Of a stretch of DNA of 64,000 nt, positions 16,749-64,000 are shown in pieces (within the stretch, counting starts at the first letter, position 1; each line of letters starts with the position of its first letter). Under the pieces are notes generated by a model. That model saw only the letters and a list, made by a program, of their open reading frames with translations, had not been told where the DNA came from and searched no databases. This DNA comes from Fistulifera solaris (lineage: Eukaryota > Bacillariophyta > Bacillariophyceae > Naviculales > Stauroneidaceae). Location of the stretch: NCBI GenBank assembly GCA_030295235.1, contig AP026179.1, positions 302,389-366,388 on the forward strand, read 5' to 3'. The translations under genes were made by a program, and so were the position numbers.

Positions 16749-16779
<31 letters not shown>

Positions 16780-22123: not shown

Positions 22124-22591
22124 AATTTCTGTATGTTTCTATGTATCGTTGCGGAACCTCTGGCAAGCTATGGAGGTCTGCATTGATTGTTTCTGTTTTT
22201 ATGAATGGCTTCTTTGTGAGCCCGCGAACTTCACTGAATCTTTTCGCGCGCAAAATCTGCGCCAAAAAGTGAAGATTTTAGCTCTTTTCTTTCTATAGTA
22301 AATTTTAGTTAGACGTTGTTCTAGATTTTCCTTCTCAACGGCTATTGATCTGTTAAGTACAGATACTCTTTGAACTGGTTTCTGTACAAATGGAAGCTTC
22401 GCGGGCGCGCACCCAAAGACCCTGAATTTTCAAAAGCCAAGAAAGCAGAAAGCTGCCGCCCACCAAGAAAAAAAATGACTTGAAGCAACAACGCAGAAAG
22501 CTTTCCCCGTGCTATCGTTGTCTTTTTCTTTCTATCAAGACGTCAAATTTCGACCTCAGCTTCCATCAACGCCCTTCACTTTTGAAGACGA
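22124..22591. other. Intergenic; start of the duplicated block
   Basis: From about 22,400 the sequence matches that upstream of the second copy at about 32,067 (for example CCCTGAATTT followed by an AAGCCAAG stretch, and AAAAATGACTTGAAGCAACAACGC). This marks the left limit of the first duplication unit. No gene seen. Confidence 0.6.
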
Positions 22592-23620
22592 ATGACAAAT
22601 CGACAAACCGCGTTGCCTCTATTTGACGAGCCGACCTTGTCAGATATTTACATGAGCGACATGGAAGACGACGACGACGATGACTTGAGTGACGATTCGA
22701 TAGCGAGCTCTGCCGTGGAAGGCGCGTTTCCTGTACAACGGATGTCGCAACAGAATGACTCGTTACTTGCAGAACTGCCGGCGAAAAGTCTATCCATGAT
22801 ACAAACACTGCCAAGTCCTATGAAAACACCCAATCGGCATCGCTCGCGAAGATCACGTCATCGTCGACAACAACCGAGTCCAGGAGAAGATCCACCGGGA
22901 TACGAAGCTTCGAGCACATTAGATTTGACGCGCTTTATTTATACGTTACCGGACGTGCATGAAGAAGAACCTTCCAAGGCTTCGACGATGCCCAAGGACC
23001 CAAAGTTGATTGACCCGTATGTGCAGCAACGGCGCTTACATTTGTGCGTCATTTTCCTTAGCTGCATGTTCTTGTTGCTGGGGATTACGGTCGCCGTTAT
23101 CGGTTCGACCATCTATCAAGAAGATGAAGTCCCAACGGCTACCGCTGCCAGTGTCGCTCTCGAACAGGAAGATGGTGGTAGTTTACCCGCCGTGCCCATT
23201 GATCTCCCGGATAATCTTTTTAGAGTTCGTCCTCCGTCACTGTCGCCGTCTCGTGGGGATACTACATTTCCTTCGGCATTGAAAGATACTATTGCACCAA
23301 CCGCCATGCCTACGTTGCGTGTATTCGAAGTCACTCCACCCATGGCGCCTCCTAGGATGCGACCGACCGTACGACCAACCCGAGCACCCACCATGCAATC
23401 CACAGACCCACCTTCGTCGCCGCCGATCTTGGAACCTTTGGAGGTGCAAGTGTCTCCACCGTCGCGACCACCCACACGCTCATCTTTGACGGCCCGTCCG
23501 ACACCGGTTCGATCGTTCGCTCCGACCCCCAGACGCGTTGAGTGGAGGCCAGCGCCCGTAGAAGAGACGTTTGAACCCACGGTACCCGCCAAGAAACCAA
23601 AAGGAGAAAAACGGCAATAA
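22592..23620 (+). CDS. Single-pass membrane protein with Pro/Thr-rich ectodomain, copy 1
   Basis: An intact 342-residue frame. The N-terminus has a conserved LPLFDEPTLSDIYMSDME block and an Asp run. A basic Ser/Arg segment (RSRRSRHRRQQ) precedes DLTRFIYTLPDVHEEE. The membrane helix is at about 149-175 (LHLCVIFLSCMFLLLGITVA). The C-terminal half is Pro/Thr/Arg-rich (RPTVRPTRAPTM, ARPTPVRSFAPTP), as in diatom cell-surface proteins, and ends in KPKGEKRQ. It is about 90% alike to the copy at 32260-33279. All length differences between them are multiples of three, which argues that both proteins are under selection. Function unknown. Confidence 0.75.
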   Translation: MTNRQTALPLFDEPTLSDIYMSDMEDDDDDDLSDDSIASSAVEGAFPVQRMSQQNDSLLAELPAKSLSMIQTLPSPMKTPNRHRSRRSRHRRQQPSPGEDPPGYEASSTLDLTRFIYTLPDVHEEEPSKASTMPKDPKLIDPYVQQRRLHLCVIFLSCMFLLLGITVAVIGSTIYQEDEVPTATAASVALEQEDGGSLPAVPIDLPDNLFRVRPPSLSPSRGDTTFPSALKDTIAPTAMPTLRVFEVTPPMAPPRMRPTVRPTRAPTMQSTDPPSSPPILEPLEVQVSPPSRPPTRSSLTARPTPVRSFAPTPRRVEWRPAPVEETFEPTVPAKKPKGEKRQ

Positions 23621-24028
23621 GGTTTAGTAGGATATGCTTTCTTTGTTTCTAGACTCATCATTGCGGAAAAGGATCGCCCATTTGAAGTCGAACGTCACAA
23701 CCGCTTTATCACCATAGTTACTGCTCATCGGAGAATGCCTTTGTTGACGATTCAGCCGTTCTGGAGCTTCCTCCTTGTTTGTGGCTCAAATTTTGGAATC
23801 TCGTGTGTGCCAATTTCGGGATCATGTGTGTGCAATTTTCAGGCTCGATTAACTATTACGACATGCTATCCATTCACTAAAGATTCGCTATGACAGAAGT
23901 GCTTCGTCGAAAACGAATGCTACCAAGTACCCACAAAATTTCGATTGCAGCAATGGCTGAAGCCTGGCTTTCATTATCAGCCGAAGGAGACGTCCTGCTG
24001 ATTATGTTAACTGTTTCTATTTTTAATT
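23621..24028. other. Duplicated 3' flank
   Basis: The first 92 bases are identical to the flank of the second copy (33,280-33,371), then the two diverge. Sequence near 23,899 (CGAAAACGAATGCT) recurs at about 26,695 in the second unit. The 68-residue frame at 23890-24096 overlaps the neighbouring gene and is not called. Confidence 0.6.
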
Positions 24029-25604
24029 TTATTTTGGCCAGTATTGCCCGTTCAATACTTCATATGCGTACTCTTTTCCGTAATACTCACTTTTGAATTT
24101 CACGATGGTGGGTTCGATGGGATCTCCATAATAAGCAACTGAGAACACCTGTCTATATGTACGTGGCCAATATGTGGTCCCCCACTTAAATCTTCCATCA
24201 GAGTAATAAATTTTGAGGGACAAACGTTGAGTAGATGTTGGAGATGTTTTGAAACATCTCGTTGTTACATGGAACCATAACATTCGACTGTTGACGGGCG
24301 AAGGTAGAATGACAATACTTTCAATGATGCCCGGCTCCGATTGATCGACTACATGAGTTCCCATATCATAGTCGGAGAGCATGCCTGGAACAGTGGCCCC
24401 TGTCACTGTAGCTACCGTTGAAAAGTCAAAAGTAGGAAAAATAGAGGCTTGCAAGTTCCAGCGAGTTGCTGTAAATGGCTGTGGTGGCGTAATCTCCTTG
24501 CAAAGCTCTCCGACAGCATTAATAGCAGTTTCTATCACCGTACATGCTTTTTCGGCCTTATCGAGGGCCCTCTTGCAGGCAGCCGCAATGAGAATTCCCT
24601 TCTCCCGTAGGTCCAGCTGCCAGCAAGTCGATAGCTGCCCCGATTGCTACGCATGTTGTAGTTTTAAAGGTTTCAAGTTCAAGTGCGGTGCAAGTGAGGT
24701 CCACGACGTCAAGAGCAAGTTCGCAAACTTCCTCCACAGCTGTTGTATCGTCTTCCGTCTGGACATTGATCCAGAAATAATATTTGCCATTGGAGGGTGT
24801 ACCCCACACGCAACCGTCTTTTGTGTAAGATTGTGAGTCTTCTGAGAGTTCGTAACAAAGACGAAGATTTGCGTCGGTGTACGGTTCACCACACTTGATG
24901 ATTTGAAGCACGACACGTCGATAACCAGATGAAGTATCAGCGCTTCTAACAACACTGTCTTCCAACACCTCGAATTCGAGTGTATCCCCTTCCTTGGCAT
25001 CGCTCGGACTTTGAGAAACAAATCCATCAGGTTGCAAATTCACCGTCAAGTCAGCGGTACGCGAAGTGATGTTCGACGACGAAACTCGGTTCGGGCCTTC
25101 CGTGTTCAACGATGTTGCGTATCGCGTACCGTTGATCTCCACTGCAATATCAGCCTCGTTAAGAGAAGTCCAGTTAATATCCAGGATGAAATCTTCCGCG
25201 GTGTTTGAAACTCTGCCAATGCGTCCGCTCTCATCAACACGCAAATTCACTAAGTCGGAATCGCCGCCGACAAAGAAATCAGTGACCGTGCTTGCGGTGC
25301 CGTTGGTGTTCTTCGTTCCGTGAATCTCAATCTTATCTCCCTTGTATGTTGTCGAAAGTATCTTGCTTCCTGGACCTGAATCGAAAGTAAAGTCGTTAAC
25401 ATCGATCTTCTCTTCCTTCTCTTCCTTGTCGCGAGGACCCTTGAAAAAGTAGCTACGATCTAAGAAGATGGAGTCCGCCGCTGCATTCGTTGAGTAAGCC
25501 GAAAACTGCGCGACCCCTTTCAACACAAGCAGCGCAGTAGTTACGACCCCGAACAGGAGCGCAAAGCGGCCTGCATTGTAGAACTCACGTGTCGTGTTTG
25601 TCAT
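24029..25604 (-). pseudogene. Secreted/anchored orphan family, copy 1 (one frameshift)
   Basis: The least damaged of three copies, about 525 residues if the shift is ignored. The N-terminus has one hydrophobic helix (GRFALLFGVVTTALLVLKGV), a signal anchor or signal peptide. The body has beta-type repeats (VNDFTFDSGPGSKILSTTY, NTAEDFILDINWTSL) and a Cys-containing middle (IIKCGEPYT, LRLCYELSED, DGCVWGTP). The C-terminal part contains TVPGMLSDYDMGTHVV, PGIIESIVI and TTRCF. One extra C in CCC at 24597-24599 breaks the frame; the other two copies have CC there. It could be functional if that base is a consensus error. The family is not recognised. Confidence 0.65.
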
Positions 25605-26329
25605 CGTGATTATTTAGCGTTAGGAGCGGTGTTTGAGAGTAAAAAGAGGAAATAAACTTGCACAATGAGCACTGATATTATTTTTTGCGATGAATGAAAT
25701 AATGAATGCACATTGCGCGATGCGCAAACAGCAAGAGCAAAAACCCTTTTCATCACATGCGACATGCGAGCTGTGCTGTACAAGTAAGGTTACGTAGTAG
25801 TAACCTTAAACCTTACAGGGTACATCGGCTTTTGTAGCTTGCCTACAGAAGACACCACAGTACTGTAAAACAATACTACGGAGTACGTACTACGAGTAAG
25901 ACATTCAGTCACGGACGTCGTGGACTTACCAGTTATCCGGGTTCTCCTCTGTCGATAAATTTCCTTAGCAGAGCTACGTGAAATTACATAGACATTCGAA
26001 GCGTTGGATCATTCGTTCCATCATCGTTTTGTTTTCAAATCGTGGGCGACTCTTGCGTTCTGCTACGATCACGAAGCAATTACGGTGGGCATCATGAAAG
26101 GGCTAGTCTATTGTTTCACGCTTTGCAATTTTGCAGGCGAGACGTGTGAGTAGGATACATCATCATCTTCTTTTGCATCGCTGAAGAACGCTAACCTTAT
26201 CCATTAACTGTTATCGGCCCCTCGTTTTTCTCCTGCATCGTCGTCCACTTTTATGACATCGAAAGAACGAAGCAAACACCTCTTCTTCTTATGCTCCTCT
26301 TATCTGATTAATTGTTAAGTAAGCAAACG
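25605..26329. other. Intergenic within duplication unit 1
   Basis: The upstream side of copy 1 of the secreted family. Contains a perfect 8-bp stem hairpin (AAGGTTAC, 6-nt loop, GTAACCTT; 25786-25807) and TACGTAC-rich sequence near 25,880. No gene seen. Confidence 0.4.
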
Positions 26330-26690
26330 CAGGGTATTGACAGGTTGGAGTGTGAGCGTTGCAGCATCCACCGAAGCGGGGAAAAGATCTTAAGTACGAT
26401 ATCATCACGGCTTAAAAACTAACTGACAGAGAGTACCATTTATTCGAGAAAGCATGGAGAAAGATGATATTTTCGTCTCTCAATAATAAGAGATTATTCT
26501 ATCGAAGAAATATCACGATGCGGTGCGCAGCAATTCAGTCAGAAGTCAAGCTAATAATTATCAGAGAGGACACCGCGACCGAGTGCCTAAACAGCAATCC
26601 GTTTTAAAGTTTTGTTCAAGAGTCGCTGAGCGACAGCATGAGAGGCTTCTTGGTTTCTAGCCAAAACTAGGGCGATGTTTATTCCATTCG
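26330..26690 (-). pseudogene. ASPM-like gene 3'-end fragment (unit 1)
   Basis: About 350 bases closely match 29,820-30,165, the 3' flank and last exon end of the truncated ASPM copy, and more weakly 38,040-38,120 of the full gene. Shared landmarks include TGACAGGTTGGAGTGTGAGC, GAGTACCATTTATTCGAGAA and CAGCAATCCGTTTTAAA. Only the very end of the coding sequence remains. It then joins sequence like the 3' flank of the membrane-protein gene, which dates a deletion after duplication. Confidence 0.8.
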
Positions 26691-27020
26691 CCGAAAACGA
26701 ATGCTTCCTATGTCGGGACTGATTAGAAGGGGTTTAGTCGGACGAATTCGAAAAGATTGATTATTATTCGCTACCTCGTCGAGCGAGCAACCTAGGATTT
26801 ATCAATGAAGTTACTCAAACAGACTCAACGCTAAACAAAGGGATCAGCTTCATTTCGTGGTTGTTGTGGATAATAGGCGTTCAGCATTAAGGAAGACTTT
26901 AAATGAGAAATGCATTTGCTTGCTTTCCTGCTTAAAAAAGAAATTGTGCGGAAATATTGCTGGAACAGTGCCATGATAAGTATCGCAAACGCCCTAGCTC
27001 CATTGTCCCTGTTTTTTGTG
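26691..27020. other. Remnant flank of a deleted membrane-protein copy
   Basis: CGAAAACGAATGCTTCC at about 26,694 matches the flank after membrane-protein copy 1 (about 23,906). This suggests unit 2 once contained that gene and lost it. No frame remains. Confidence 0.5.
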
Positions 27021-28601
27021 TTAGGGTAGTATTGCCCCGTTCATCACTTTGTATTCGAATTCTTCTCCGTAAGGTTGACTCTTAATATTAACCAGGTCGA
27101 GAACATTGGGCCGATTTGCTAAACTATACATGGAGACCTCTCTCCTAGGATTTCCTGGAGACCAAGTTACATGCCAAATTCTTTTTCCCTCAGAGTCATA
27201 AATGTTGAACCGCATATATTGTTCACGGTACCATGGCCAAGACGTGAAACATCGCGTTGCAATTATAAATCTTAATTGCCCAGGATAAGGTGCAGGTTGA
27301 ACGACGATACTTTCAATAATGCCCGGCACAGACCAATCAATATCGTGAGTTCCCATATCAAAATCTGAGAGCATGCCTGGAACAGTTGCTCCTGTCACTG
27401 TAGCTACCGTTGGAGAAAAGTCAAAAGTAGGAAAAGTGGAGGCTGCAAGTTCCAACGAGTTGCTGTAAACGGCTGTGGTGGCGTAATCTCCTTGCAAAGC
27501 TTTCCGGCAGACATGGCTGTGATAGAAGCTGATGCCATCTGGCATACTTTATCGGCCTTATTAAGGGCCCTCTTGCAGGCAGCCGCGATAAGAATTCCTT
27601 CTCCCGTAGGTCCAGCTGCCAGCAAATCTATAGCCGCACCGATTGCTATGCACGTTGTAGTTTTGAAGGTTTCAATTTGAAGTGCGGTGCAAGTGAGGTC
27701 CACGACGTCAAGAGCAAGTTCGCAAACTTCCTCCACAGCTGTTGTATCGTCTTCCCGTCTGGACATTGATCCAGAAATAATATTTGCCATTGGAGGGTGT
27801 ACCCCACACGCAACCGTCTTTTGTGTAAGATTGTGAGTCTTCTGAGAGTTCGTAACAAAGACGAAGATAAACGTCGGTGTACGGTTCGCCACACTTGTTG
27901 ATTTGAAGCACAACGCTGTCGGTAGCCAGATGAAGTATCAGCGCTTCTAACAATACTGTCTTCCAGCACCTCAACTTCGAGTGCATCTCCTTCCTCGGCA
28001 TCGCTCGGGCTTTGAAACCCCATTCCTTCAGGTCGCATATTCACTGTTAAGTCATCCGTGACGCGAGGGTGGCATCCGGCAATGAAACTCGGTTCGGGCC
28101 TTCCGTGTTGAATGATGTTGTGTATTGCCTGCCGTTGATCTCTACAGCAATATCAGCTTCTGTAGGAGAAGTCCAGTTAATATTAAGGATGAAATCTTCC
28201 GCGGTGTTTGAAACTCTGCCAATGCGTCAGCTCTCATCAACACGCAAGTTCACTAAATCGTAATCGCCGGCCGACAAAGAAATCGGTGACCGTGCTTGCG
28301 GTGCCGTTGGTGTTCTTCGCTCCGTGAATCTCAATCTTTTCTCCCCCGTATGTTGTCGAAAGAATCTTGCTTCCTGGACCTGAATCAAAAGTAAAGTCGT
28401 TGATATCGATCTTCTCTTCCTTGTCGCTGACGGTTCTTGGAAGAAGTAGCTACGATCTAACAAGATAGAATTCTCTGCTGCATTCGTTGAAAAAGCCGGA
28501 AACTGCACGGCCCCTTTCGACACAAGCAGCGCAGTAGTTACGACTCCGAATAGGAGGGCAAAGCGGCCTGCATTATAGAGATGGGATGTTGTGTTTGTCA
28601 T
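27021..28601 (-). pseudogene. Secreted/anchored orphan family, copy 2 (several frameshifts)
   Basis: The start and signal anchor are kept (MTNTTSHLYNAGRFALLFG), but the frame shifts after the anchor (FFQEPSATRKR), again near 28,260, near 27,900-28,070 and near 27,440. Between the shifts the segments still match copy 1, for example CGEPYTDVYLRLCYELSED, AAACKRALNKADKVC and PGIIESIVVQ. The number of breaks and the divergence point to a decayed copy rather than to a few sequencing errors. Confidence 0.75.
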
Positions 28602-28816
28602 CGTGAATTTGTAGTGTTAGGAACTGCGCTTTGGAAGGGAAACAGAGGAGATGAATTCACAATGAGCACTGATATTAGTTATGAATGAAATGCGCAGCTC
28701 GCAACAGCAAGCTTAAAACTCTTTTCATCACTCGATCATCACAGGCTCTGTGCGAGGTGCGCGCTGTACGTGGAACTACACTCGAGTCTTACAGTATCTT
28801 GACATTTGAGCTACTT

Positions 28817-28888
28817 CCTACAGGGAGACACGGGAACGCACCTCTGCTTGGTACATTTTTCTACGGGGGCCTACGTGAGTGTACACTT
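28817..28888 (+). repeat. 72-bp dispersed repeat, copy 1
   Basis: Identical over 72 bases to 35534-35605 (begins CCTACAGGGAGACACGG, ends TGTACACTT). It sits upstream of secreted-family copy 2. A third, diverged, inverted copy is at about 37,336-37,395. Confidence 0.85.
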
Positions 28889-29819
28889 TTTCCCGAACCT
28901 TCCAGGAAACACTACTGTGCCTAGAGTAGTATATAAAAGTAAAATTCAGTCACGGACGTACCACGCACCAGGTACTGTACCAGGTATTGAGTAGTGAGTG
29001 GACGAGTGGACGATGATTTCTCAATACAGAACTGTACAAGTAACCTTACCTGGTACCTGGTACCTTGTACTGTAGACTGTAGACTACTGGTACTGGTAAT
29101 GAGCCTTATTACTGGAAAGGACGTTTTTTAAGACCCGGTCCGGCGAAATAAGGGTGCACGAAATTGCTAGGATTTGGTCACCCCCAAAAAACTTTTTTTC
29201 TTCGATTTCTGCAAAAAATACATCAATCGATAGCTTTTAAAAAGTTATTGCAATGTATTATTCTACTTTTGCTAGTTTTGTCGATATTAACTAATTTTTG
29301 AAGCATAAACATAGACTTTTTGTAACGGTCGAAGCATAGACAGGTACCGCTGCGCATAACAAATTGTAGAATTTCGTTTCGTTTTTGTACCGCTTCGTCA
29401 TCGCCAACGCGACTTCTCGCTCAAAAACATTCGGCCGTTGAGCAAGAAACTTGATTAAAATTGACTTGAAAGACCACTTTCAGATCCCTCTTTTGGTAAA
29501 AGATGATCACCATAACGTGGTTGATGGAATGCTACTGCTGGGGGCAATGATTTGTGCCACACGGGGACAAAAGATAAGTTTATTCTTGATTTCGTCGTCG
29601 TGAAAATCTTGGGGTCGCTCTTTCTACTTCGTTTTCTCTTTCACAGCGGCCAAAACAACAATCAACCGTCAAACATCCTCTTTAAGTGTCACTTGAGGTC
29701 TATTCTCTGTTAATTGTTTATAGAAGCAGCAGTTTTTAGAGGAGTTATGTAACGACTAATAATCACTCACATTTTGTTGTGAATTTTGTAATGGTTGTAT
29801 TTTGCTCAATTATTTTTGG
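28889..29819. other. Intergenic within duplication unit 2
   Basis: Contains GGTACC-rich repeats (28,960-29,095) and AT-rich sequence with no recognisable gene. Confidence 0.4.
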
Positions 29820-30079
29820 GTAATGACAGGTTGGAGTGTGAGCGTTGCTGCATCCACCGAGCGGGGAAAAGATCTTAAAGTATGATATAATAACTGCTTT
29901 AAAATTACTCCGTAACTGATACAGAGTACCATTTATTCGAGAAAGCATGGAGAAAGATGAAATTTTCGTCTCTCAATAATAAGAGACTATTCTATTGAAG
30001 AAATATCACGATGCGGTACGCAGCAATTCATTCAGAAGTCAAGCTAATCATTATCAGAGAGGACGCCGCGACCGAGTGC

Positions 30080-32083
30080 CTAAACAGCAATCCGTTTTAA
30101 AATCTTGTGCAACAGACGCTGAGCAACGGCATGAGAGGCTTCTTGGTTTTTAGCCAAAACTAGGCGGTGTTTGGGATCTTGTTTATTGAAACGATTGCGA
30201 TTGGAATTTTCAACAAGTATGTGAGACCGGCGCGAAGAGACGACGTCGTAAACAGCTTGCAGTCGCTTCTTGTTTTCTTTCGACTTGCAATAGTCCTGAA
30301 TAAAATGTGAGACTAACGATGGAGAAAGTTACAATAGAAGAGCAGCAAAGAAACCTACCATCAGATCCACGTTAGCCTTGACAGACTTTGACAAAAGTGC
30401 AACGGAAAGACTGAAAACAACCTCCTTGTCGCGAAACATCTGAAGCAAGTCCAAGAAGATACGGACGCCAGTAATTGTAGCGACTGAAGGTAAAAGCTCG
30501 TTGAAGCGTGCAACGTTCGACAATGTCAAAAGGATCCACTCCAAGAGCTCAACATGCGGGAGACTCCGATTGCAGCTCCTTACAAGAGAAAATAGAATAT
30601 CGGGCGCTCCTGCTTGCGTAAATGCCGTGCAACATTGGCGTGAATAACGAGTGGCACGTTCAAGAAACTGGATCGAGTCAAGTATGTCCGAAAGGCCCGA
30701 GCTCTTTCGCAGCCTGATCAAGGCTCGCTTGGTTTTGTTGCATAACCGAAGATCGGGATTCATCGTCGAGTTAATCTTTGCGACTTGAACTCTCTGCATT
30801 CGGCTTGCCGCTAAAGGATCCTTTGCGCGAACAGAAAAACCACGGAATGCACCTTGAAGTTGAACGAAACCGGCTGTCATTTTTCGGAATGCCTTCTGCA
30901 TTCGACACTGCTTCCAGCTTAAAGCTATTTTTCTGGCGGATGTGTGTTGCAACATGCGCCGAGAGTGTTCACGGTAACTGCACTGAATGATCCGAGCAGA
31001 GCGCTCTTTGCAGAAGGTCAATGCGAGATGTTCATCTCTGCAAGATTCAGCGTGCTTTCTGCCCAACCAGCCACGAAACAGAGATTGAATAGCCACGGCA
31101 GAGAGCTCCATACAAATGAAGTACGTAACACTAACATAGGCACGCCATGCTCCTTGAATTTGAGTAGCGGCGAAATGCTGCAAGGCCAAGTCTGCTCTTT
31201 GGATGTGACCGCGGACAACTCTTTGCACCTGGGTGATGGCAACTTTTCGAACAAGAAACTTTGACCGAAGAAAGAACATCCTCATTGTGGCTAGAATCTT
31301 AATTGCACTAGAAGATTGTCGTCTTAGGTGCCGTACAACCAAAGATCGTCTTGCGAATGACTGAAGGCGTACTATGTCAGCCCTTCTCTGAGCAACTTTA
31401 GATACTGCGATGAAGCGTCGGGCAGCTGCCTGGATTTGAATGCAACTCAGGATGGCCATCATGTAATCGACATGCTTTGTGTAGCATCTCCAGGTTTTCT
31501 GAAGTTTTGTGGCGGCGCGACCGCGACGTAGAGATACTCGAGTAAGGTAGCCCCGCACAAAGCGTTGAAGAACTATGGCTGCTGAGAATGCTGCACATGA
31601 CTGAGAGAAGCGTGTTTTCATGCTGTGCATACGAACGGCCGATTGAATCCTTATAATTGACTTTCTCCGCTCATTAGCCGCTCGTCTTGCCATCCACATC
31701 CGTGCAATAGACTGGACTATAACAATATCAACCAACTCGATGTAGTAATCAATTCGTGCTACATGCCCCCTGAATACACGTTGAATGTGCACGGCGCTCT
31801 TCCTCAAATTCATAGTCTCTCTTTGCACAAGATAGCCACGGAATCGGCTTTGAATGACTTGCGCGGCTCGTATTTCATTGTTTCGAGCTACGACCATCAT
31901 ATTCGTAGCGAGTTTTGCAAGCCAAACACGACACGAACATTGAATCATCAACAGATTGGCTCTTCGGTTCTCAGCCAGCCTACAGGACAACCATTTTCCG
32001 TACACAGGACTGGATTCGGATAGTGCTAGATCGAATCGGTGAATACATTTTCGTGTACGAAATGATGCGTCGCGGGCTCGCAC
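30080..32083 (-). pseudogene. 5'-truncated ASPM-like IQ-repeat gene (unit 2)
   Basis: A partial copy of the 38,039-43,610 gene lacking the CH domain and the first IQ motifs. The main exon stays open for 30359-32083 and carries many IQ motifs, for example AAQVIQSRFRGYLVQRE and AVHIQRVFRGHVARI. It is followed by a 63-nt intron (30296-30358) and a last exon ending at 30080. The IQ part is followed by an armadillo-like helical C-terminus (LLEWILLTLSNVARF). Homology to the full gene stops at about 32,050, where the next membrane-protein unit begins. It contains an open frame where the full copy has a one-base gap (near 39,565). It may still be transcribed, but has no proper 5' end. Confidence 0.75.
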
Positions 32084-32259
32084 CCGAAGACCCTGAATTT
32101 ACAAAGCCAAGGAAGGTGCCGCCAACCAAGAAAAAAATGACTTGAAGCAACAACGCAAAAGCTTTCCCCGTGCTATCGTTGTCTTTTTCTCTCTTTCAAA
32201 GCATTGATTTTCGACCGGTTTACTTGTCCTTTATCAACGCACTTTACTTATAGATACGA

Positions 32260-33279
32260 ATGACAAATCGACAAACGGCGTTGCCTCTATTTGACGAGCC
32301 GACCTTGTCGGATATTTACATGAGCGACATGGAAGACGACGACGACGATGACTTGAGTGACGATTCGATGGCGAGCTCTGCCGTGTTTCCTGTACAACGG
32401 ATGTCGCAACAGAATGATGTGTTGATTGCGGAACTGCCAGCGAAAAGTCTATCCATGATAAAAACCGTGCCAAGTCCGATGAAAACAACGAATCGCCACC
32501 ATCGCTCGCGAAGATCACGTCACTCGTACCGACGACAACAACCGAGTCCTGGAGAAGATCCACCGGGATACGATGCTACCTTGGATTTGACGCGCTTTAT
32601 TTATACGTTACCGGACGTGCATGAAGAAGAACCTTCCAAGGCTTCGACGATGCCCAAGGACCCAACGTTGATTGACCCGTATGTGCAGCAACGGCGCTTA
32701 CATTTGTGCGTCATTTTCCTTAGCTGCATGTTCTTGTTGCTGGGGATTACGGTCGCCGTTATCGGTTCGACCATCTATCAAGAAGAGGAAGTCCCAACGG
32801 CTACCGCTGCCAGTGTCGCTCTCGAACAGGAAGATGGTGGTAGTTTACCCGCCGTGCCCATTGATCTCCCGGATAATCTTTTTAGAGTTCGTCCTCCGTC
32901 ACTGTCGCCGTCTCGTGGGGATACTACATTTCCTTCGGCATTGAAAGATACTATTGCACCAACCGCCATGCCTACGTTGCGTGAAGTAACACGACCTGTG
33001 GCCCCTCCGAGTAGGCGACCGACCTTACGACCGACACGAACACCCGCCATGCAATCCACACAATCGCCTTCGTCGCCGCCGCCGATCTTGGAACTTTTGG
33101 AAGTGCAAGTGTCGCCCCCGTCGCGAGCACCCACACGCGCCCCCGTGACGGCCCGTCCGACACCAGTTCGATCGTTCGCTCCCACCCCCAAACGCGTTGA
33201 GTGGACGTCAGCGCCCGTGGAAGAGACGTTCGAGCCCACGGTACCTGGAAAGAAACCAAAAGGAGAAAAACGGCAATAA
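32260..33279 (+). CDS. Single-pass membrane protein with Pro/Thr-rich ectodomain, copy 2
   Basis: An intact 339-residue frame with the same plan as the gene at 22592: acidic N-terminus, basic linker, DLTRFIYTLPDVHEEE, one membrane helix (about 146-172), and a Pro/Thr/Arg-rich tail ending KPKGEKRQ. The central 400 bases (about 32,580-32,985) differ from copy 1 at only about two positions and the 3' flank is identical for 92 bases. The first 320 bases and the Pro-rich tail carry many substitutions and in-frame indels. That patchwork suggests gene conversion. Function unknown. Confidence 0.75.
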   Translation: MTNRQTALPLFDEPTLSDIYMSDMEDDDDDDLSDDSMASSAVFPVQRMSQQNDVLIAELPAKSLSMIKTVPSPMKTTNRHHRSRRSRHSYRRQQPSPGEDPPGYDATLDLTRFIYTLPDVHEEEPSKASTMPKDPTLIDPYVQQRRLHLCVIFLSCMFLLLGITVAVIGSTIYQEEEVPTATAASVALEQEDGGSLPAVPIDLPDNLFRVRPPSLSPSRGDTTFPSALKDTIAPTAMPTLREVTRPVAPPSRRPTLRPTRTPAMQSTQSPSSPPPILELLEVQVSPPSRAPTRAPVTARPTPVRSFAPTPKRVEWTSAPVEETFEPTVPGKKPKGEKRQ

Positions 33280-33423
33280 GGTTTAGTAGGATATGCTTTC
33301 TTTGTTTCTAGACTCATCATTGCGGAAAAGGATCGCCCATTTGAAGTCGAACGTCACAACCGCTTTATCACAGTTGTTACAGATCATCAGAAAACATTTT
33401 TTTTAAATCCGTATTGGGTCGTA

Positions 33424-34975
33424 TTGCCCGTTCATTGTTTCAAATGCGTATTCTTTTCCGTATGGCTCGCTTTTTATTTTTAACGACGGTGCGAATATTG
33501 AAATCTGTATAATAACTCCAGGAGTACACTTCTCTCGAAACACCTGCCCAAACTTTGCTAGTAAACATGAGTTTCCCATCAGAGTCGAAACGTTTTAAAG
33601 ACAAATATTGTGTGTACAATTGAGATGCTTTGAAACATCGCGTTGTTACATAAAACAACAAGAGTCCATTGTCCTTGGGTCCTGGTTGAATCACAATACT
33701 TTCAATGATGCCCGGCGCCGATTGATCGACCTCATGAGTTCCCATATCAAAGTCTGAGAGCATGCCCGGAACAGTTGCTCCCGTCACCTTAGCTACCGTT
33801 GAAAAGTCAAAAGTAGGGAAAATGGATGCTTGCAAATTCCAGCGAGTTGCTGTAAACGGCTGTGGTGGTGTAATCTCTTTGCAAAGATCTCCGGCAACCA
33901 TAATAGAAGCTGATGCCATCTGACATGCTTTTTTCGGCCTTATTGAGGGCCCTCGCAAGCAGCCGCAATCAGAATTCCTTCTCCCGTAGGTCCAGCTGCC
34001 AGTAAGTCTATAGCCGCACCGATTGCTATGCATGTTGTAGTTTTGAAAGTATCTATCTGAAGTGCGGTGCAAGTGAGGTCCAAAGTTTCAACGGCAAGTT
34101 CGCAAACTTCCTCCACAGCTGTTGTATCGTCTTCCCGTCTGGACATTGATCCAGAAATAATATTTGCCATTGTACGGCGTACTCCATACGCAACCGTCTT
34201 TTGTGTAAGATTGTGAGTCTTCTGAGAGTTCGTAACAAAGACGAAGATTTGCGTCGGTGTACGGTTCACCACACTTGATGATTTGAAGCACGACACGTCG
34301 ATAACCAGATGAAGTATCAGCGCTTCTAACAACACTGTCTTCCAACACCTCAATTCGAGTGTATCCCCTTCGTTGGCATCGCTCGGACTTTGAGAAACAA
34401 ATCCATCAGGTTGCAAATTCACCGTCAAGTCAGCGGTACGCGAAGTGATGTTCGACGACGAAACTCGATTCGGTCTTCCGTGTTCAACGATGTTGCGTAT
34501 CGCGTACCGTTGATCTCCACTGCAATATCAGCCTCATCTAGAGAAGTCCAGTTAATATCGAGGATGAAATCTTCCGCGGTGTTTGAAACCCTGCCAATGC
34601 GTCTGTTCTCATCAACATGCAAAGTCACTAAGTCGTAATCGCCGCCGACAAAGAAATCGGTGATAGTGCTTGCGGTGCCGTTGATGTTCTTTGCTCCGTG
34701 AATCTCAATCTTTTCTCCCCATATATTGTCGAAAGGATCTTGCTCCCTGGCCCTGAATCAAAAGTAAAGTCGTTGACATCGATCTTCTCTTCCTTGTCGC
34801 GACGGTTCTTGAAGAAATAGCTTCGATCTAGCAAGATGGAGTTCTCCGCTGCCTTCGTTGAGTAAGCCGAAAACGGCACGGCCCCTTTCGACACAAGCAG
34901 TAATGCAGTAGTTACGACCCCAAACAGAAGCGCAAAGCGACGTGCATTGTAGAGCTGGTGTGATGTGTTTGTCAT
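33424..34975 (-). pseudogene. Secreted/anchored orphan family, copy 3 (several frameshifts)
   Basis: The start and anchor are kept (RRFALLFGVVTTALLLVSKG). Shifts occur after SKILSTIYGEK (about 34,720), near 34,620, near 34,470, near 34,350 and at 33,950. At 33,950 two bases are missing relative to copy 2 (CCCTCGCAAG against CCCTCTTGCAGG). The last residues are also out of frame (near 33,480). From 34,180 to 34,430 it is nearly identical to copy 1, so recent exchange between copies is likely. Confidence 0.75.
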
Positions 34976-35861
34976 CGTGAATCTCTAGTCTTGGGAACGG
35001 CGTTTGGAAATGAAACAGAGCAGATAAACTCACAATGCACGCCTTTTCATGTATTTGCGATGAAATGAAATTTTTGCTCAATTGTCACAAAATCTGTGAT
35101 TGCAACAGATGTACAACGTACAGGCCGTAATGAACGTCTATTTTGCCGATCATTCAAAACCATCAAATTGTGAACAACATCCGATGAAGTTGAGCGGATA
35201 GCGTTCACATATCTATTCAACTCCAACTGTTATTGCACGTTCTCATCCATTCCAGTCCTTTCCAGGATAATCTAAGATCCTTGGCTGTTCAAATAGATGA
35301 GAACCACTACAATAGATAAACGTTAAGCCGCGCATGACTCAACCTATCATCCCGAACCCTAACAAATCAGAATTCATTTACTCTAGTGCATCATCAATCA
35401 TCAATCATCATTCATCATGCTGTTCGAGTTCGAGGTGTGAGCTGGAACGAGCTACTGTAAGGTTTACATGGAATTACAGTCAAGAGTCAAGCCAGACAGT
35501 ACTGCATGAACGCCTTTTGTTGCTTGTTGCTTACCTACAGGGAGACACGGGAACGCACCTCTGCTTGGTACATTTTTCTACGGGGGCCTACGTGAGTGTA
35601 CACTTGGTAGTATATGGTATGTCATGTTTGACCTTCATCTTCATATCATCATCGTCGTCGTAGTATCAGGTACCGGTATCCCAAACCACAAGATTCATTG
35701 AGAGGTCCAATATTGTTGCCATTAGATGAACTCCCAACTCCCAAGAGTTCACATGCGTGCGCCTAAATGCCGTGCAACACTGATGTGAACGGCGACTGGC
35801 CCGTTTAAGAAAATAAAGTGATGATGAATCGTAACTCTACTTGTGATCAATTAATGACTGA
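34976..35861. other. Intergenic within duplication unit 3
   Basis: Upstream of copy 3. Contains the second 72-bp repeat and a short stretch (about 35,765-35,800) resembling the ASPM exon sequence GTGCAACACTGATGTGAA, perhaps another tiny fragment. No gene seen. Confidence 0.4.
35534..35605 (+). repeat. 72-bp dispersed repeat, copy 2
   Basis: Identical to 28817-28888 and placed similarly, upstream of a secreted-family copy. The flanks diverge immediately on the right side. Confidence 0.85.
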
Positions 35862-37090
35862 TTACTGAGCGAATGCGTCCAAGAGAAGGACCCCCAACAC
35901 AACTCCAGCTACATGAGAATATAGATCAACGGAATTGAAGAAGGGGCCCGATCCAGACGATGCAGATGTTGTCGGTTCAGGGTTATTGTCAGACGAGTTG
36001 CTTCTCGCACCCGAGGGCGAACCCGTCGTTTCGACTGGAGCTGATTCATCCGTAGCAGTAGGTGGTGATGGTGTCACAGGATTAGCGACAGGTGCTGGTA
36101 CCGGTGCCGGTTCCGGTTCTCCCTCGACGATGCCTGCGACTGCAACGTAAATTCAAACAATTGACCGTCCGAATTGGCGGGCTCGGAAACTAAAATGTAG
36201 TACTCGATACCAGTCTCGGCGGTCCACTCGATTGTGGATCCCCATGTACTACCGGAAGTGACACAAGCGTCTCCATCGCCACTACGAGATTGGATCCCCA
36301 ACACTTCTCGGGTATTGCCGGTGGTGGCTCGCAGAGCCAGCGATTCTTGAGCATAAGTGGTAGTGTACTTGAACCAAACTCCGTTTTCACCAAACAAACC
36401 GCAGACGTCTTGAGAAAAATCCGAAAGTGCACCTACTGTGGTGAAATCCCCCCGAAAAGGAAGATCATCTTGTGTCAACGCAACAGCAGTCTCCATGCTG
36501 TCGTTTACGGGAGGCTCTAACTCTTCGACGAAAAGCGTATAGGGGTCACTCCCATCGGCGTCACTAAAGACGTAGAGGAGATACTCGACTCCAACTTCTG
36601 CTTGGAAGACCAAATCGTTAGAAGTGGCCAAGGAAGACGAATCTTCACATTTCAGAGAATCACAAGAGCCCGTAACAGCTACCGTTGCCACCGCAAAAAT
36701 AAATTCTTCCATCACTTCCACAGACACGCGGACCATGGTTGGTTTCGAAGCAATGTAACGGAACCAAAAGCCAGCTGGAAAGGCCGAAGATCCCGAGGCT
36801 AGAGCGTCATCGCAGATAGAGAGAGGAAGATAGTAGGAATTATCCACAGGTTCTACCGATGACGGAGTGAATGTAAAAGGCGCCGTAATGCTTTGTGGAG
36901 CACTGCAAGACGTTTGAGCCTGCACCAGAGCTGTCTGGAGCGTCGTCGTGAGCAACGCTAATAGTAACGACACCATCATGAAGCAGTAGTCATGGCGACG
37001 AAAGAAAGGCGAGCGATTATGAATCATTTCAACGCGTTGTACAGATGGTAAGAGGAAAATACAAATGCAAAAAGTTCTTGGTTGGCACAT
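35862..37090 (-). CDS. Secreted, probably GPI-anchored protein (one suspected frameshift)
   Basis: About 370-409 residues. The best start is the ATG at 36979, which gives a signal peptide (MMVSLLLALLTTTLQTALVQAQ); the ATG at 37090 would add 37 residues before it. Two similar beta-rich domains follow, with motifs such as GFWFRYIASKPTMVRVSV...VEYLLYVF and GVWFKYTTTYAQ...IEYYILVSEP, like bacterial-type prepeptidase C-terminal or jellyroll modules. A Pro/Glu/Thr/Ser-rich linker and a hydrophobic C-terminal end (VAGVVLGVLLLDAFAQ) follow, typical of GPI signals. The linker and end are in another frame, needing one extra base near 36,140. Both halves look natural, so I read one gene. Role unknown, likely cell surface. 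Confidence 0.6.
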
Positions 37091-38038
37091 TTTGATTTGG
37101 TTGCGATGGATTATTATTTGCGAATTGAAGTGCGAGGATGACGTTCGGGGGCAATGCTCTCTTCTGTACAGGTATAATAATGATTTATTTAGTTATGTTA
37201 AGGTTATTTTGAACTGTACTGTTGACTAACTCTAGTGACTGAAATGTCATACTGTCATACGTGGGAGGGGGGAGGGGCAATACTGAAACTACAGTAACAA
37301 TCCAATTTTGAGTTTTGACCAGGAACGTGGGGAAAAAGTGTACATTTACGTAGGCCCGCGTAGAAAATGTACCAAACACAGTTGCGTTCCCGTATCAACG
37401 TGACTGAGGTTACGAAGGATGTCGCAGAGGAGCTAACGAGACGTCTCAATTCTCCGTCCGCCATATAATACTATCAAACGAAACGAGCAACAAATCCTCC
37501 TCTTTGGCGAATGGTTTAGTGAGCGAGCAAAGAGAGGGATTAGTGAGAAGCGAAGTTTGAACGTTGTTGCTTGCGTCGAGCCTGACAATAGCTTGTCAAG
37601 TACGATAATCACGGCAATATGATGAACGGATTCCATTCTTACCAGAAGCATGAGGAAAGAGTCCCGTATCGTTTGGCAAAGGCTAAAACAACCTAAAGAT
37701 ATGACCAGACTCTCATTATTAAGATGCATAAGAATCTTCGACGTGCGGCGGTTTTGGGCAGCGAAACGATATCGCGCCTACATCTACGGCTTATTTTCAT
37801 CCCAGAACCTTACACACGAGCTACAATTGGTTTCGTCTTAGTCGATGCCGAAACGGGATGCTTCACACTTAAAGATAGGAACACTACGTTATCTCGCTCA
37901 TACAACTATGATGAATAATAGTCACACAATGTGGTGCGGCATATTATGTAATGCAGTCAACGACTAAGCTTTCAATAAAGAACGTCGCAGTCGCCATGTT
38001 AAATCACCGTCGTTGAGATCATCATACAGAAACAGAGC
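37091..38038. other. Intergenic region
   Basis: Contains the inverted, diverged third copy of the 72-bp repeat. Short frames at 37,650-37,918 have no recognised domain. The 3' flank of the ASPM-like gene occupies the right end. Confidence 0.4.
37336..37395 (-). repeat. Diverged inverted copy of the 72-bp repeat
   Basis: The reverse complement aligns with 28817-28888 over about 60 bases with several mismatches (shared TTGGTACATTTT, GGGCCTACGT and TGTACACTTTTTCCC). Confidence 0.7.
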
Positions 38039-41000
38039 CTAATCAACAATCCGTTTCAAGATCTTGTGCAACAGACGCTGAGCAACAGCGTAAGTAGCTT
38101 CTTGGTTTCTTGCCAGAACTAGGCGGTATTTCGGATCCTGCTTACTGAATCTATTGCGATTGGAGTTTTCAACAAGTATGTGAGACCGGCGAGAAGAGAC
38201 GACGTCGTAAACAGCTTGCAGACGCTTCTTGTTTTCTTTCGACTTGCAATAGCCCTGTGTAAAACGTGAGAGATAGAGATAATGCGAGAGGAGCAGCAGT
38301 AAAACGTACCATCAGATCCACGTTTTCCTTGAGAGACTTCAACAACAATGCAACGGAAAGGCTAAAAACAATTTCCTTGTCGCGGAACATTTGAAGCAAG
38401 TCCAAGTAAATTCGAACGCCAGTGAGTGTTGCGACCGAGTTTAAATGTTCGTCGAACCGTGCAACGTTCGATAATGTCAAAAGGATCCACTCCAAGAGCT
38501 CAACATGCGGAAGACTCCGATTGCAGCTTCTCACGAGAGAAAAAAGAATATCGGGCGCTCCTGCGCGCGTGAATGCTGTGCAACAGTGATGTGAATAACG
38601 AGTGGCACGTTCAAGAAACTTAATCGAGTCAAGAATGTCCGAAAGACCCGAGCTCTTTCGCAGCCTGTTCAAGGCTCGCTTAGTCTTGTTACATAACCGA
38701 AGATCAGGATTCATTGTCGAGTTATTCTGCGCGGCTTCAATTCTCTGCAATCGGCTTGCCGCTAAAGGATCCTTTGCGCGAACAGAAAAACCACGGAATG
38801 CGGCTTGAAGTTGAACGAAACCGGCTGTCATTTTTCGGAATACCTTCTGCATTCGACACTGCTTCCAGCATAAAGCTATTTTTCTGGCGGATATATGCTC
38901 CAGCATGCGCCGAAAGTGTTCTCGGTAACGGCATTGGATGATCCGGGCAGAGCGCTCTTTGCAGAAGCTTATTGCGAGATGTTCCTCTCTGCACGATTCA
39001 GCGTGCTTTCTACCCAACCAGCCACGGAACAGAGATTGGATAGTCACGGCAGAGAGCTCCATACAAATGAAATACGTAACACTGACATAGGCACGCCATG
39101 CTCCCTGAATTTGAGTAGCGGCGAAATGCTGCAATGCCAAATCTGCTCTTTGGATGTGACCACGGACAACTCTTTGCACCTGGGTGATGGCTATTTTCCG
39201 AACAAGAAACTTGGACCGGAGAAGAAACATCCTCGTTGTGGCTTGAATCTTTATAGCGCTAAATGATTGTCTCGTCAAGTGCCTTTTGACTATAGCACGT
39301 CTTGCTATTGACTGAAGACGTACTATGGCAGCCTTTCTCTGAGCACCCATCGATATTGCGATGAAGCGACGGGCAGCTGCCTGGATCTGAATGCAACTCA
39401 GGATAGCCATCATGTAATCGACATGCTTTGTATAGCATCTCCAGGTTTTCTGAAGTTTCGTGGCAGCGCGAACACGCCGCGTAGAGGCTCGAACGAGGCA
39501 GTCCCTCACAAAGCGTTGAAGAATTATGGCTGCTGATCCTTTTGCACGTGACTGAGAAAAGCGTTTTTCATTCTATACATACGAACGACCGATTGAATCC
39601 TTATAACTGAATTTCTCCGCTCAATAGCCGCCTGCCTTGCCATCCACATCCGTGCAACAGCCTGGACAATGACGATATCAACCAATTCGATGTAGTAATC
39701 GATTCGGGCCACATGCCCCCTGAATACACGTTGAATTTGGATGGCACTCACTCTCACATTCACCGTCTCTCTTCGCACAAGATAGCCACGGAATCGGCTT
39801 TGAATGTTTTGCGCGGCTCTTATCTCATTGTTTCGAGCTACGACCATCATATTCATAGCACGTTTTGCGAGCCAAACCCGGCATGCGCGTTGAATGATCA
39901 AGAGATAAGCTCTTCTTCTCACAGCCAGTTGACAAGACAACCATTTCCGTACACAGGACTGGATTCGGATTGTGCGAGATCGAATAAGTGAATACCTTTT
40001 CGTAGCTATGTATGACCGACAGATAGTTTGCGCGAAAATGATTTGCAGCCGCATAAACTGGTACTTCGTTTTTGCTGACTTTTGCCGGGTCCACGCTTGA
40101 AGAACACTAGCCGCTTTATGCAATCGCAATATTTCGTTCCTCGATCTCATTCCTCTGATGCGCGATTGTAATCTCTTGACACCCAAGTCGACTATGGGCA
40201 AAAGTTTGGTAAGATATCTGTTTCGTAAAGAATAACTTCTCCAAGTTGCTTGAAGGGAACAGGCTGCATAAACAGCATTATGAAAATGCTTACGCGCTTT
40301 CAAGCTTCGCCAATAATTTTGAATAACAGTTGCGTGTTGTCTCTTCATGTAAAAAAGCAGAACGTGCAACGTAATACCTATATGCCGTCTGTATGCGTAG
40401 GCAGGCGCGCAAGAGGATACTTACACGAGATATGGCACCGTGTCGGCGCCAAGCACTCTGGATTCGAGTGGCAGCCTGGCGTCTCGACTCTATATCCTTC
40501 TCAATAAGGATTTTTACTCGATATCGAAGATAAGCGATCTGATTTGAAGAATCAAATAAGTTCGATAAAACTGGAAATGAAATAGGATTTGTTCGGCAAA
40601 ATACATACCTGGATACAACGAGCTAAACGATTTTCTTTGTGAGCCTTGCGAGCAAGAAGATGAGTTTTGGTCTTTTTTTGCAAAAGTAATACAGCTTGAC
40701 GGCGCTTCTTATATTCCTGTCCTGCAAGGAAGCGCCTGGCTAAAGCTTGCACAGTTATAATATCGATGAATGCGAGCTGGAGATTGACCTGAGCCAGGAA
40801 CCCTTTCCAAATCCGCTGAATCTTACATGCGGATTGGACCATTTTAGTGTAACGACGAGCTCGGAAGGCTTTCCATTGCTTTAGGATAACTGATGAGGCC
40901 GCTAAGATCAGCTTTTGATGCAATCGCGAAACATTATTACGCCACCAATGCTGAATTGCGACGGCTGCATCGTCTCGAATCATTTGCTTGACCATCATAC

Positions 41001-43610
41001 GAGTCCACCACAACTGAATGATCATTGCTGCGTTAATCCTCTCCGTTACGACTCCCGTTCGTTTTGAAGCCAAGAAACGGCGTACATGTTTCTACCGAGC
41101 TGTGAGATTTACTACAACTACTATACAAATTAAAATCATGATCATTCGCTTACCTGGATAATAACCGCCTTCTGATGTGTCTGTTCACGGCTTAGTCGCA
41201 ACAGGGAAAACTTGTTCTTGTATCGGAGTACAAAGTTCTCTAGCACGGCGACTGCTTTCGCATAAGTACAGCGCTGTGAAGAATAGTACACTTCTCGATG
41301 TATCTCCCACGCACTCCAGATCAACCTTGCAGCTTCTTTTCGTCGCAGCTCCATTTTCCGCTCGCTATAAGCCCGATAGGCAAATTGAATCAAGCGGGTC
41401 GCTCGGTCTTCCGCACTGGACGAAAGTAAACGAGAGCAAAGACAAGTTAACGCAAGCAACATGGATTCTTCAGAAGGTTTAGCTGGGATGATTTGGTGCG
41501 GCATTCCACCCAAACGAACTAACACTTTGTTAGCACGCTTCGCGTTTTCCTTAGCGGAATGCTCGGAGTAGTCGATATCCTCAATACGTAGAAGCCGAGG
41601 ATGGTAATAATGTATCAATATGCAAACAGAGACTCCATCAAAGAAAGATGATGTCCAATTTTGTACAGACCGACCGAAACGACGACACACCAAATCAGCC
41701 CATATTAGCAAGCTGCCCTTGAGATCAGGTGGAACAAAGGGGAAATTCGAGAATGAACGAAGTCGCTCGAGTCGTTCAATCTCTTCGTGCACTCTTTCCA
41801 CGGGTAGCAAATCATCCAAGCAAGACTTTGCTAGAAGAGTCCACAGCAATAAGAATACTCGATCGCGATACCCATCGACAATATGATGAGCCAAAACCTT
41901 ACTGTCCGGTACAAGATGCATCAACTCTCCGAGGACACGTTGTAAATTACGTATTTTTTGCAGACGGGAGCCGGCTGGAATTTCCAATTTCTGAATCAGC
42001 TCAAATCGAGGCAAGTGCAATAGTTCTTCGGCCCAACGTGCCAAGCGTGTCCCATCTCGTAAATCAGTAGCGAGATTGACAATGCGAAAATCAAGTTCAT
42101 CGACTACCGACTGCTGATACACCACTTTCAAACCTTGTCGTTCCAGATGGCGAGCAAAATTACCCTGGCCATGGAGGACAATTCGACTCAGTGCGTTTAA
42201 AATGTCTTTCATTGCTTTGTACTTCGAATTCGCGTTGAAAAGGGGTTGGTCAAAACAATGAGCCTGCGTTGCTTCTTCCAGAAAGAAGAAAAGCACCAGT
42301 ACACGATACAATACGAGCTGCCGCATCTCCTGTTTGTAGTCCTTTTCGAAGCGACCCGAAGGGACTTTGCATTTTCCTCGTGTATACTTTTTGAGAAGTT
42401 TCCGATCGAACAGTAGACGATCCAAGATGAAATCTTTCATGGTCATCTTGTTGGGAATATCACCCAACATCGTTTCGAGACCAAGCCGAAGCCACTGCGG
42501 CTGAAAGGACTGAAGGAGCTCCATGACCTCGGCACGAACAGTGAGATCCGCGTGAATATCTTTGTCGGTGCGAATAGTGACGCGGCCAGTCGAAATTTCG
42601 GAATGGAGCGTGTCGCGCGTGGTTGACATGCTGACAAAAACGGCTCGTGCTTTCAATCGCGCCTTGGCGTATCGTTGATGCCATTGCAGCGTATCTGCTT
42701 CGTCTGGGGGACACAAAATGTAATTTAGAAATGTAGTGAAGGTTTCTTCTTGTTGACTAGCCCACGCTTCCTTGTTTTTTCTTTTCGTCGGCACTTGTGG
42801 TTGCAGTCGGAGGCATCAATTGAATCGGAGACATGATCGTTTTTGCTTTTACTTTTCCCATTCGTGCTTTTTTTCTGAGAGGAGCGACCGGGCACAAAGC
42901 TACTTTGTTTTCGAGGGATCGGTGGTTTCTTTGGTGGTCTTGTTCCCTGCGCGGCTTCGCAAAACACACTAGAGAGATCCATGCAAACCCCGGCTGACTT
43001 GGTAGTGCTGGGAGGCGTCATGACCGCTTCCATGAGCCCTTTCAACGCGGCATCAAGACTCGCATCACCTTGTGATGTAGAAATTGGTTCCGGTGGTAGA
43101 TTCTGAGGAATAGCAGACGTATCAATGACCAAAGCTGGCGCCGTCGAACTAACGATCGTCGGAGGTACATTGACTGGAGCAGGAGAGTGTCGGGGTGCTT
43201 CCGTAAATTTCTGCAAAGTTGATTTGAAAATACTTGATTTAGGTTTTGATTCTTTTATTGCGACTGGATTGCTTTCCGTAGAACCGGGTATCGCTTTGGA
43301 AGATAGTATTTTTGTTGTGTTTGTTGTCATTGTCGAGAAAACGCCCGTTGTGGGTAGCACGGAGTTGTCTACAACCGGAGAAGATAGCGAAATGAAGGAA
43401 GAGTCTCCTGACAATTGCATTTCTTGAGACAACATCGAGCGCGGTGTCAATGTCGCTCGAACAGCACGACGAAACGAAGGTGTAGCATTCTCTGTAGCCG
43501 TCCTATCTCCAAATAATTGGGATTGCTTTTTTCTTTGCTGTCGACATTTTCTCTTCCTGGTTGGTGCGGCGACCAAGCGGTTGTCGTTTAGAAGAATGTA
43601 AGGCTTCCAT
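38039..43610 (-). CDS. ASPM/abnormal-spindle-like protein, CH domain plus IQ repeats
   Basis: About 1,765 residues. The start is ATG at 43610 (MEALHSSKRQ). Introns: 41092-41153, 40539-40608, 40343-40424 and 38255-38309 (55-82 nt, all GT-AG). A disordered basic N-terminus leads into EAWASQQEETFTTFLNYIL and then an ASPM-type calponin-homology region (KGSLLIWADLVCRRFG ... FDGVSVCILIHYYHP). More than 20 IQ motifs follow (VIIQKHVRRFLASKR, AATRIQSAWRRHG, VIQNYWRSLKAR), which should bind calmodulin-like light chains. An armadillo-like C-terminus ends it. In the family these proteins focus spindle microtubule minus ends. One-base shifts are needed at 43,527-43,532 (T6), 42,775-42,780 (T6) and near 39,565; the last is intact in the truncated copy at 32 kb. 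Confidence 0.8.
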
Positions 43611-63830: not shown

Positions 63831-64000
63831 GGGTTAGGGTTAGGGTTAGGGTTAGGGTTAGGGTTAGGGTTAGGGTTAGGGTTAGGGTTAGGGTTAGGGT
63901 TAGGGTTAGGGTTAGGGTTAGGGTTAGGGTTAGGGTTAGGGTTAGGGTTAGGGTTAGGGTTAGGGTTAGGGTTAGGGTTAGGGTTAGGGTTAGGGTTAGG
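63831..64000. repeat. Terminal telomere (GGGTTA)28
   Basis: A perfect GGGTTA tandem array of 170 bases to the window end, G-rich strand 5' to 3' outwards. This marks a real chromosome end and follows single-copy gene sequence with no subtelomeric satellite between. Confidence 0.97.

Follow-up and report, generated by a model that had tools for sequence, protein, structure and literature searches.

The end of contig C43 of the Fistulifera solaris assembly (51.7 Mb in 61 contigs) carries a block of repeated genes, which we analyzed within a window of 64,000 nucleotides (C43:302389-366388). Proline-rich membrane proteins and paired contigs would be in keeping with a diatom origin. The block lies about 20-42 kb away from the telomere and contains two transmembrane-protein (TM) genes, three copies of a secreted orphan gene, a 5'-truncated ASPM-like gene (A'), a long ASPM-like gene (B) and a scrap of an ASPM 3' end. 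A preliminary description, made from the sequence alone, had read the block as three tandem units at different stages of decay. Here we compare the block with itself, with the partner contig C42 and with C44, a near-duplicate contig, and suggest that it may combine two diverged versions of one subtelomeric region.

Genes and repeats of the block

The features are as follows (aa, amino acids; ORF, open reading frame; dS, synonymous divergence; LTR, long terminal repeat; strand given where one was assigned).

20800..28664: C42-like block with a 214-aa membrane gene, TM1, secreted copies 1 and 2 and the ASPM 3' scrap; 96% to C42:425334-431122 and C42:437805-439841
22592..23620, + strand: TM1, membrane-protein ORF, 342 aa, open; mosaic; C44 copy identical over 1069 bases
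24029..25604, - strand: secreted orphan copy 1; dS 0.003 to the open 524-aa copy of C42
26332..26680, - strand: ASPM 3' scrap (gene end and 3' flank); about 90% to 29818-30172; also in C42, where an LTR-type insert splits it
27010..28601, - strand: secreted orphan copy 2; dS 0.071 to C42 copy 2; 9 frameshifting indels, 1 reference-frame stop
29124..29814: dispersed repeat occupying the interval of C42's gene G; 86-89% copies on C13, C17 and C5, and many partial copies
30075..32055, - strand: ASPM A', 5'-truncated, 3' half only; 29970-32055 is 93.6% identical to C42
32050..32060: junction of A' to the sequence upstream of TM2; homology switch with little or no overlap, likewise in C44
32260..33279, + strand: TM2, 339 aa, open ORF; 92% amino-acid identity to TM1
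33403..34975, - strand: secreted orphan copy 3, mosaic; 7 frameshifting indels, 0 reference-frame stops
36074..37090, - strand: G, secreted-like ORF, 338 aa; a single place on each of C43, C44 and C42
38034..43610, - strand: ASPM-like gene B, with two CH regions, an IQ array and a C-terminal region (Pfam CH and IQ; PDB sequence matches)
63823..64000, + strand: TTAGGG telomere repeat at the terminus of C43

Self-comparison of 20-45 kb (seed 14, length at least 60) showed direct, parallel repeats spanning 22.4-43.6 kb, as the preliminary description had anticipated, and the same repeats appeared in cross-matches between the window and C44 (E threshold 1e-20). The TM pair (22379-23735 and 32049-33354) is 88.5% identical, the secreted family (24020-25700, 27289-28691 and 33400-35071) 83-85%, the ASPM pair (30075-32054 and 38034-40003) 86%, and the ASPM 3' scrap pair (26332-26680 and 29818-30172) 89-90%; kilobase-scale matches at 83-89% are far above chance level. 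None of the 20 largest of the 26 repeat families was inverted. The order of TM, secreted and ASPM genes had been said to recur three times. The secreted family does occur three times, but the TM gene only twice, and the scrap of TM flank placed in the second unit was seen neither among these 20 families nor in the C44 cross-matches. The truncation of the ASPM copy at about 30080-32083 was correctly recognized, whereas gene G of the third unit (36074-37090) was missing from that account.

Gene B encodes tandem CH regions, with a Pfam CH match at 359-434 and PDB sequence matches to alpha-actinin chains (216-331 or 233-331) and a spectrin chain (233-424). A' contains the IQ repeat (PF00612; E 1.5e-32), as do three ORFs of B, and a PDB sequence search with A' returned three myosin-V sequences, whose similarity lies in the IQ region. 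An N-terminal ASH domain and a C-terminal armadillo-like region are features of ASPM; the N-terminal 283-aa ORF of B, where the gene model is uncertain, had no Pfam match. Judged from these sequence matches, the label “ASPM-like” is a fair one, and a spindle role may be presumed from it. The predicted model of A' is helical with a mean predicted local distance difference test score (pLDDT) of 39.5, too low for recognizing an armadillo-like region, and that of the secreted protein (P0001) has a mean pLDDT of 37.7. Neither NCBIfam nor Pfam, the latter searched at permissive settings, had an entry that G, the secreted protein or TM matched above a curated cut-off. ARAGORN reported no tRNA, Rfam gave no match for the whole window at gathering scores or for 20-45 kb at E 0.01, and no publication on this locus was among the matches listed in a literature search.

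Two ASPM types and the relation to the partner contig

By sequence comparison, A' is the sister of the C42 ASPM gene, and B is the other type. Identity of the C42 gene to A' is 92-100% for most of the length and drops to 78-84% at the 3' end; to B it is 87.1% over 38039-42527 (4.5 kb), with 80-93% per 250 bases in both halves. The dS was 0.092 between C42 and A', 0.385 (IQ) and 0.502 (CH) between C42 and B, and 0.369 between A' and B. Among sites at which one of the three sequences is the odd one out, this was B at 183, A' at 31 and C42 at 25. The point at which A' is truncated is the position of the junction. Changes on the branch of A' itself were 15 nonsynonymous and 16 synonymous, as against 7 and 18 for C42, so that constraint on A' is perhaps relaxed while not clearly neutral. 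A 1-base insertion near the 5' end of A' is common to C44. In the IQ stretch of B, a 1-base deletion common to C43 and C44 may be genuine or else a run-length error present in both, and a second frameshift differs between the two contigs.

On C42, searches found a single copy each of TM (frameshifted), G and ASPM and two copies of the secreted gene, in the order TM, secreted 1, ASPM scrap, secreted 2, G, ASPM. The matching parts of the window are 20800-26625 (96%), 26621-28664 (96%), 29970-32054 (93%) and 35659-37251 (90%). Over aligned bases the identity was 97.4% for 21103-26625 and 96.6% for 26621-28664, with weaker spots over most of TM1 (89-95%) and from 28421 onward (86%); the first match begins at the edge of the query, and the left end of the C42-like block is thus beyond view. 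By block, secreted copies 1 and 2 and A' match C42 at 93-100%, as compared with 87-89% for copy 3 and B. Spacers were 89.1, 99.2 and 99.0% identical on the left and 79.6 and 51.0%, with many gaps, on the right. From 23.7 to 26.6 kb, spacers included, identity is 99-100% per 200-base step with one step at 96%, which suggests a recent conversion tract. C42 has an insert of 6.68 kb (C42:431123-437804) without a counterpart in the window, where its site is at 26621-26625. The 5-base flanking duplication and the identical 213-base ends, the parts of it that were seen, are as expected of a young LTR element.

The yardstick for the divergence of C42 and C43 came from elsewhere in the assembly: two stretches on C11/C12 and one on C40/C41, each of these being an apparent chromosome pair. 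These control loci were the ones that earlier searches happened to fetch, and the frames are open frames rather than confirmed genes. The control stretches were 82-92% identical, with a dS of 0.25-0.28 in the longest frame of each; two further comparisons gave no match, and L050 versus L052 (34% identity), which is no chromosome pair, was excluded from the range. Because of these values, the left block appears anomalously similar to C42. The excess similarity was seen for the ASPM gene, the secreted copies and the spacers; it was weak for G (which has relatives on C11 and C12 at 69-70%) and absent for TM. TM1, TM2 and the C42 TM are mutually 92-93% alike over the whole length, and for this reason the TM genes alone do not set a C42-like unit 1 apart from a unit 3 of another type.

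Mosaic copies, frameshifts and the near-duplicate contig

The repeated genes are mosaics. Secreted copy 3 is 96-99% identical to copy 1 in one tract and 96-100% identical to C42 copy 2 in another. For the TM genes, 136 informative sites fell into 35 runs, compared with a mean of 89 and a minimum of 69 in 5000 shuffles; the secreted copies gave 151 runs against a shuffled minimum of 196 (5000 shuffles). Because the nearest relative switches along these copies, we infer gene conversion both within and between chromosomes.

C44 (51.5 kb) is colinear with positions 12106-64000 of the window in the reverse direction, telomere included, as two long pieces of about 98.4% identity with 98 and 47 mismatches and 291 and 182 gap openings. 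Among its single-base deletions, 172 of 271 lie within runs of at least three. Its gene order and its junction of A' with TM2 are those of the window, save for small C44-specific deletions, and its copy of TM2 has zero substitutions and five 1-base deletions. C44 looks like a little-corrected long-read copy of the same molecule spanning the block, perhaps from the same reads; its agreement is support for the order seen in the window, not proof. A similar near-duplicate pair is formed by C48 (L001, L003 and L004) and C40 (L002, L005 and L053), which are at least 99% identical, each comparison showing 0-5 mismatches and 8-16 gap openings.

With the open 524-aa secreted copy of C42 as the reference, copies 1, 2 and 3 have 1, 9 and 7 frameshifting indels, and C42 copy 2 has 8. 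When these 17 frameshifts of the window were checked in C44, 12 were absent, 4 were different or unclear, and 1 was shared; the shared one sits in a G run and is also present in C42 copy 2. The single frameshift of copy 1 is absent from both C44 and C42. Six of the nine in copy 2 are absent from C44, five also from C42 copy 2. Copy 2 shares three indels with C42 copy 2, at reference positions 544, 1554 and 1568; the final 22 bases hold two of these, and all three may be real. Absence from C44 is the weaker kind of evidence, because C44 is deletion-prone and 10 of the 12 absent frameshifts are insertions in the window. In G, a 1-base difference from C42 shifts the frame near the 3' end, and C44 is the same as the window.

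Reference-frame stops before the end numbered 0, 1 and 0 in copies 1, 2 and 3, with one each in C44 copies 2 and 3. If all differences were neutral, simulation gave 8.5 stops for copy 2 and 7.0 for copy 3; if half were neutral, it gave 4.6 (P 0.057, not significant) and 3.7 (P 0.017). The ratio of nonsynonymous to synonymous divergence (dN/dS) between diverged secreted copies was 0.30-0.45; the value of 0.60 for copy 1 versus C42 copy 1 represents three changes only. Neither dN/dS nor the stop counts thus show a loss of codon constraint in the secreted copies. Decay was therefore set aside as the main reading of these copies, the three shared indels of copy 2 excepted, since 12 of the 17 frameshifts are absent from C44 and the codons are constrained. 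The “different stages of decay” of the preliminary description fare no better with the TM genes, both of which are open.

Possible histories of the block

The explanation that we prefer, at a rough probability of 45%, is that a subtelomeric block is represented here by parts of two diverged versions, which ectopic recombination between partner chromosomes brought into tandem. Version A would have the order seen on C42, and version B, taken as native to the chromosome of the window, would comprise TM2, secreted copy 3, G and ASPM B, with B as the homoeolog of the C42 ASPM rather than an old paralog. The two chromosomes would have recombined at non-allelic sites, or a template switch would have occurred between them, so that a version-A stretch, cut within its ASPM gene, came to lie beside version B at about 32,055; later gene conversion, within and between chromosomes, would have homogenized tracts. 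This explanation is favored by the sister relation of A' to the C42 ASPM, with B more distant in both halves, by the similarity of the left block beyond the control values and the agreeing contrast between left and right spacers, by the truncation of A' at the junction and by the few runs into which the TM sites fall.

Several observations weigh against this explanation. The single-copy genes of the stretch differ little between C42 and C43, with a dS of only 0.070 on the left (the 214-aa gene) and 0.117 on the right (G, despite its location in unit 3), and no G adjoins A'. TM1 and TM2 are equidistant from the C42 TM (both 93%; dS 0.142 and 0.163), which weakens the case for two joined versions and strengthens that for reciprocal loss; the distances of G and TM2 mean that further conversion must be invoked. 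The dS of B to C42 (0.385-0.50) exceeds that of the longest control frames, control values across all frames range from 0.11 to 0.46, and B, rather than the left block, may be the outlier.

The same values can be read as the outcome of an old tandem duplication in cis, in which ASPM A and B stood in tandem in an ancestor, and the B unit was lost from C42 and the 5' half of A from the chromosome of the window. We regard this history as a close rival, somewhat less probable than the preferred one. The dS of the 214-aa gene and of G lie near those of A' (0.092) and secreted copy 2 (0.071), B stands apart, a search with A' gave one ASPM place on C42, and a deletion from within A to the region upstream of TM2 would yield an identical junction. 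It requires, however, a whole-unit duplication and two separate losses, and a dS of 0.07-0.12 is low for this pair when the longest control frames have 0.25-0.28. A reading that goes further, divergent resolution within one nucleus, with two old ASPM-like paralogs of which one chromosome has A only and the other B and a broken A, is rather unlikely. A wrong joining of two haplotypes in the assembly of the window is improbable: the assembly is imperfect here, since 52 kb of C43 appear again in C44, broken by hundreds of small gaps, and frameshifts within the repeats are unshared, but C44 has the identical junction and order, and its deletion-rich differences would fit little-corrected long reads across the block, perhaps the same reads. 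Least probable is the duplication of three units in place, followed by decay that has gone further in some than in others, and with selection on the surface-gene pair. The repeats are tandem and parallel, one ASPM is truncated and another a scrap, and three indels of secreted copy 2 recur in C42. However, a single series of in-place duplications fits poorly with the pairing of A' with C42 and not with B, most of the frameshifts lack a counterpart in C44, and whole-gene dN/dS is below 1 (0.25-0.28 for TM, 0.30-0.45 for secreted pairs). These averages show constraint but could miss selection at single sites.

Reciprocal loss, or divergent resolution, of duplicates is a known kind of event, and it resembles the present case in that C42 keeps an A-type ASPM and the chromosome of the window B and half of A; the likeness depends on A and B being cis paralogs. 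If it were true, the locus would be a natural case of partner chromosomes keeping different copies of a spindle-related gene, and under divergent resolution segregants could lack one of the two presumed spindle-gene copies, a route to hybrid incompatibility. Two joined versions would instead recall hybrid or allopolyploid genomes shaped by homoeologous exchange and gene conversion, in which tracts of one chromosome's type occur on the partner; here, in contrast, the join looks non-allelic (mid-ASPM to the region upstream of TM) and gives a tandem duplication instead of a replacement. For the allopolyploid diatom F. solaris, a published analysis reports that the GC trend reverses at the end of chromosome 10 and interprets this as possible crossing over (PMC5935921). 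Subtelomeric clusters subject to ectopic recombination, as generally known and as outlined in an excerpt of PMC6102362, likewise lie near telomeres with repeated genes, mosaic copies and mobile elements, whereas the whole-gene averages here carry no sign of diversifying selection and one member is spindle-gene-like. More generally, when diverged partner chromosomes exchange sequence, a single contig can come to look as though it had undergone serial tandem duplication, and repeats with uncorrected long-read errors can look like decaying genes.

Smaller repeats were also noted. Positions 25934-26091, without an Rfam match, resemble units repeated at intervals of about 425 bases in arrays on C1, C11, C25, C38 and C40, among other contigs. 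An element of less than 90 bases at 28820-28906 has copies 99-100% identical on C5, C7, C15, C25 and C38 and a second, inverted copy in the window at 37330-37396. The dispersed repeat at 35107-35383, between secreted copy 3 and G, is 91-92% similar to sequences on C4 and C16. Outside the block, a (CTT)43 run at 16750-16879 corresponds to poly-lysine within an ORF having KDM5-type matches.

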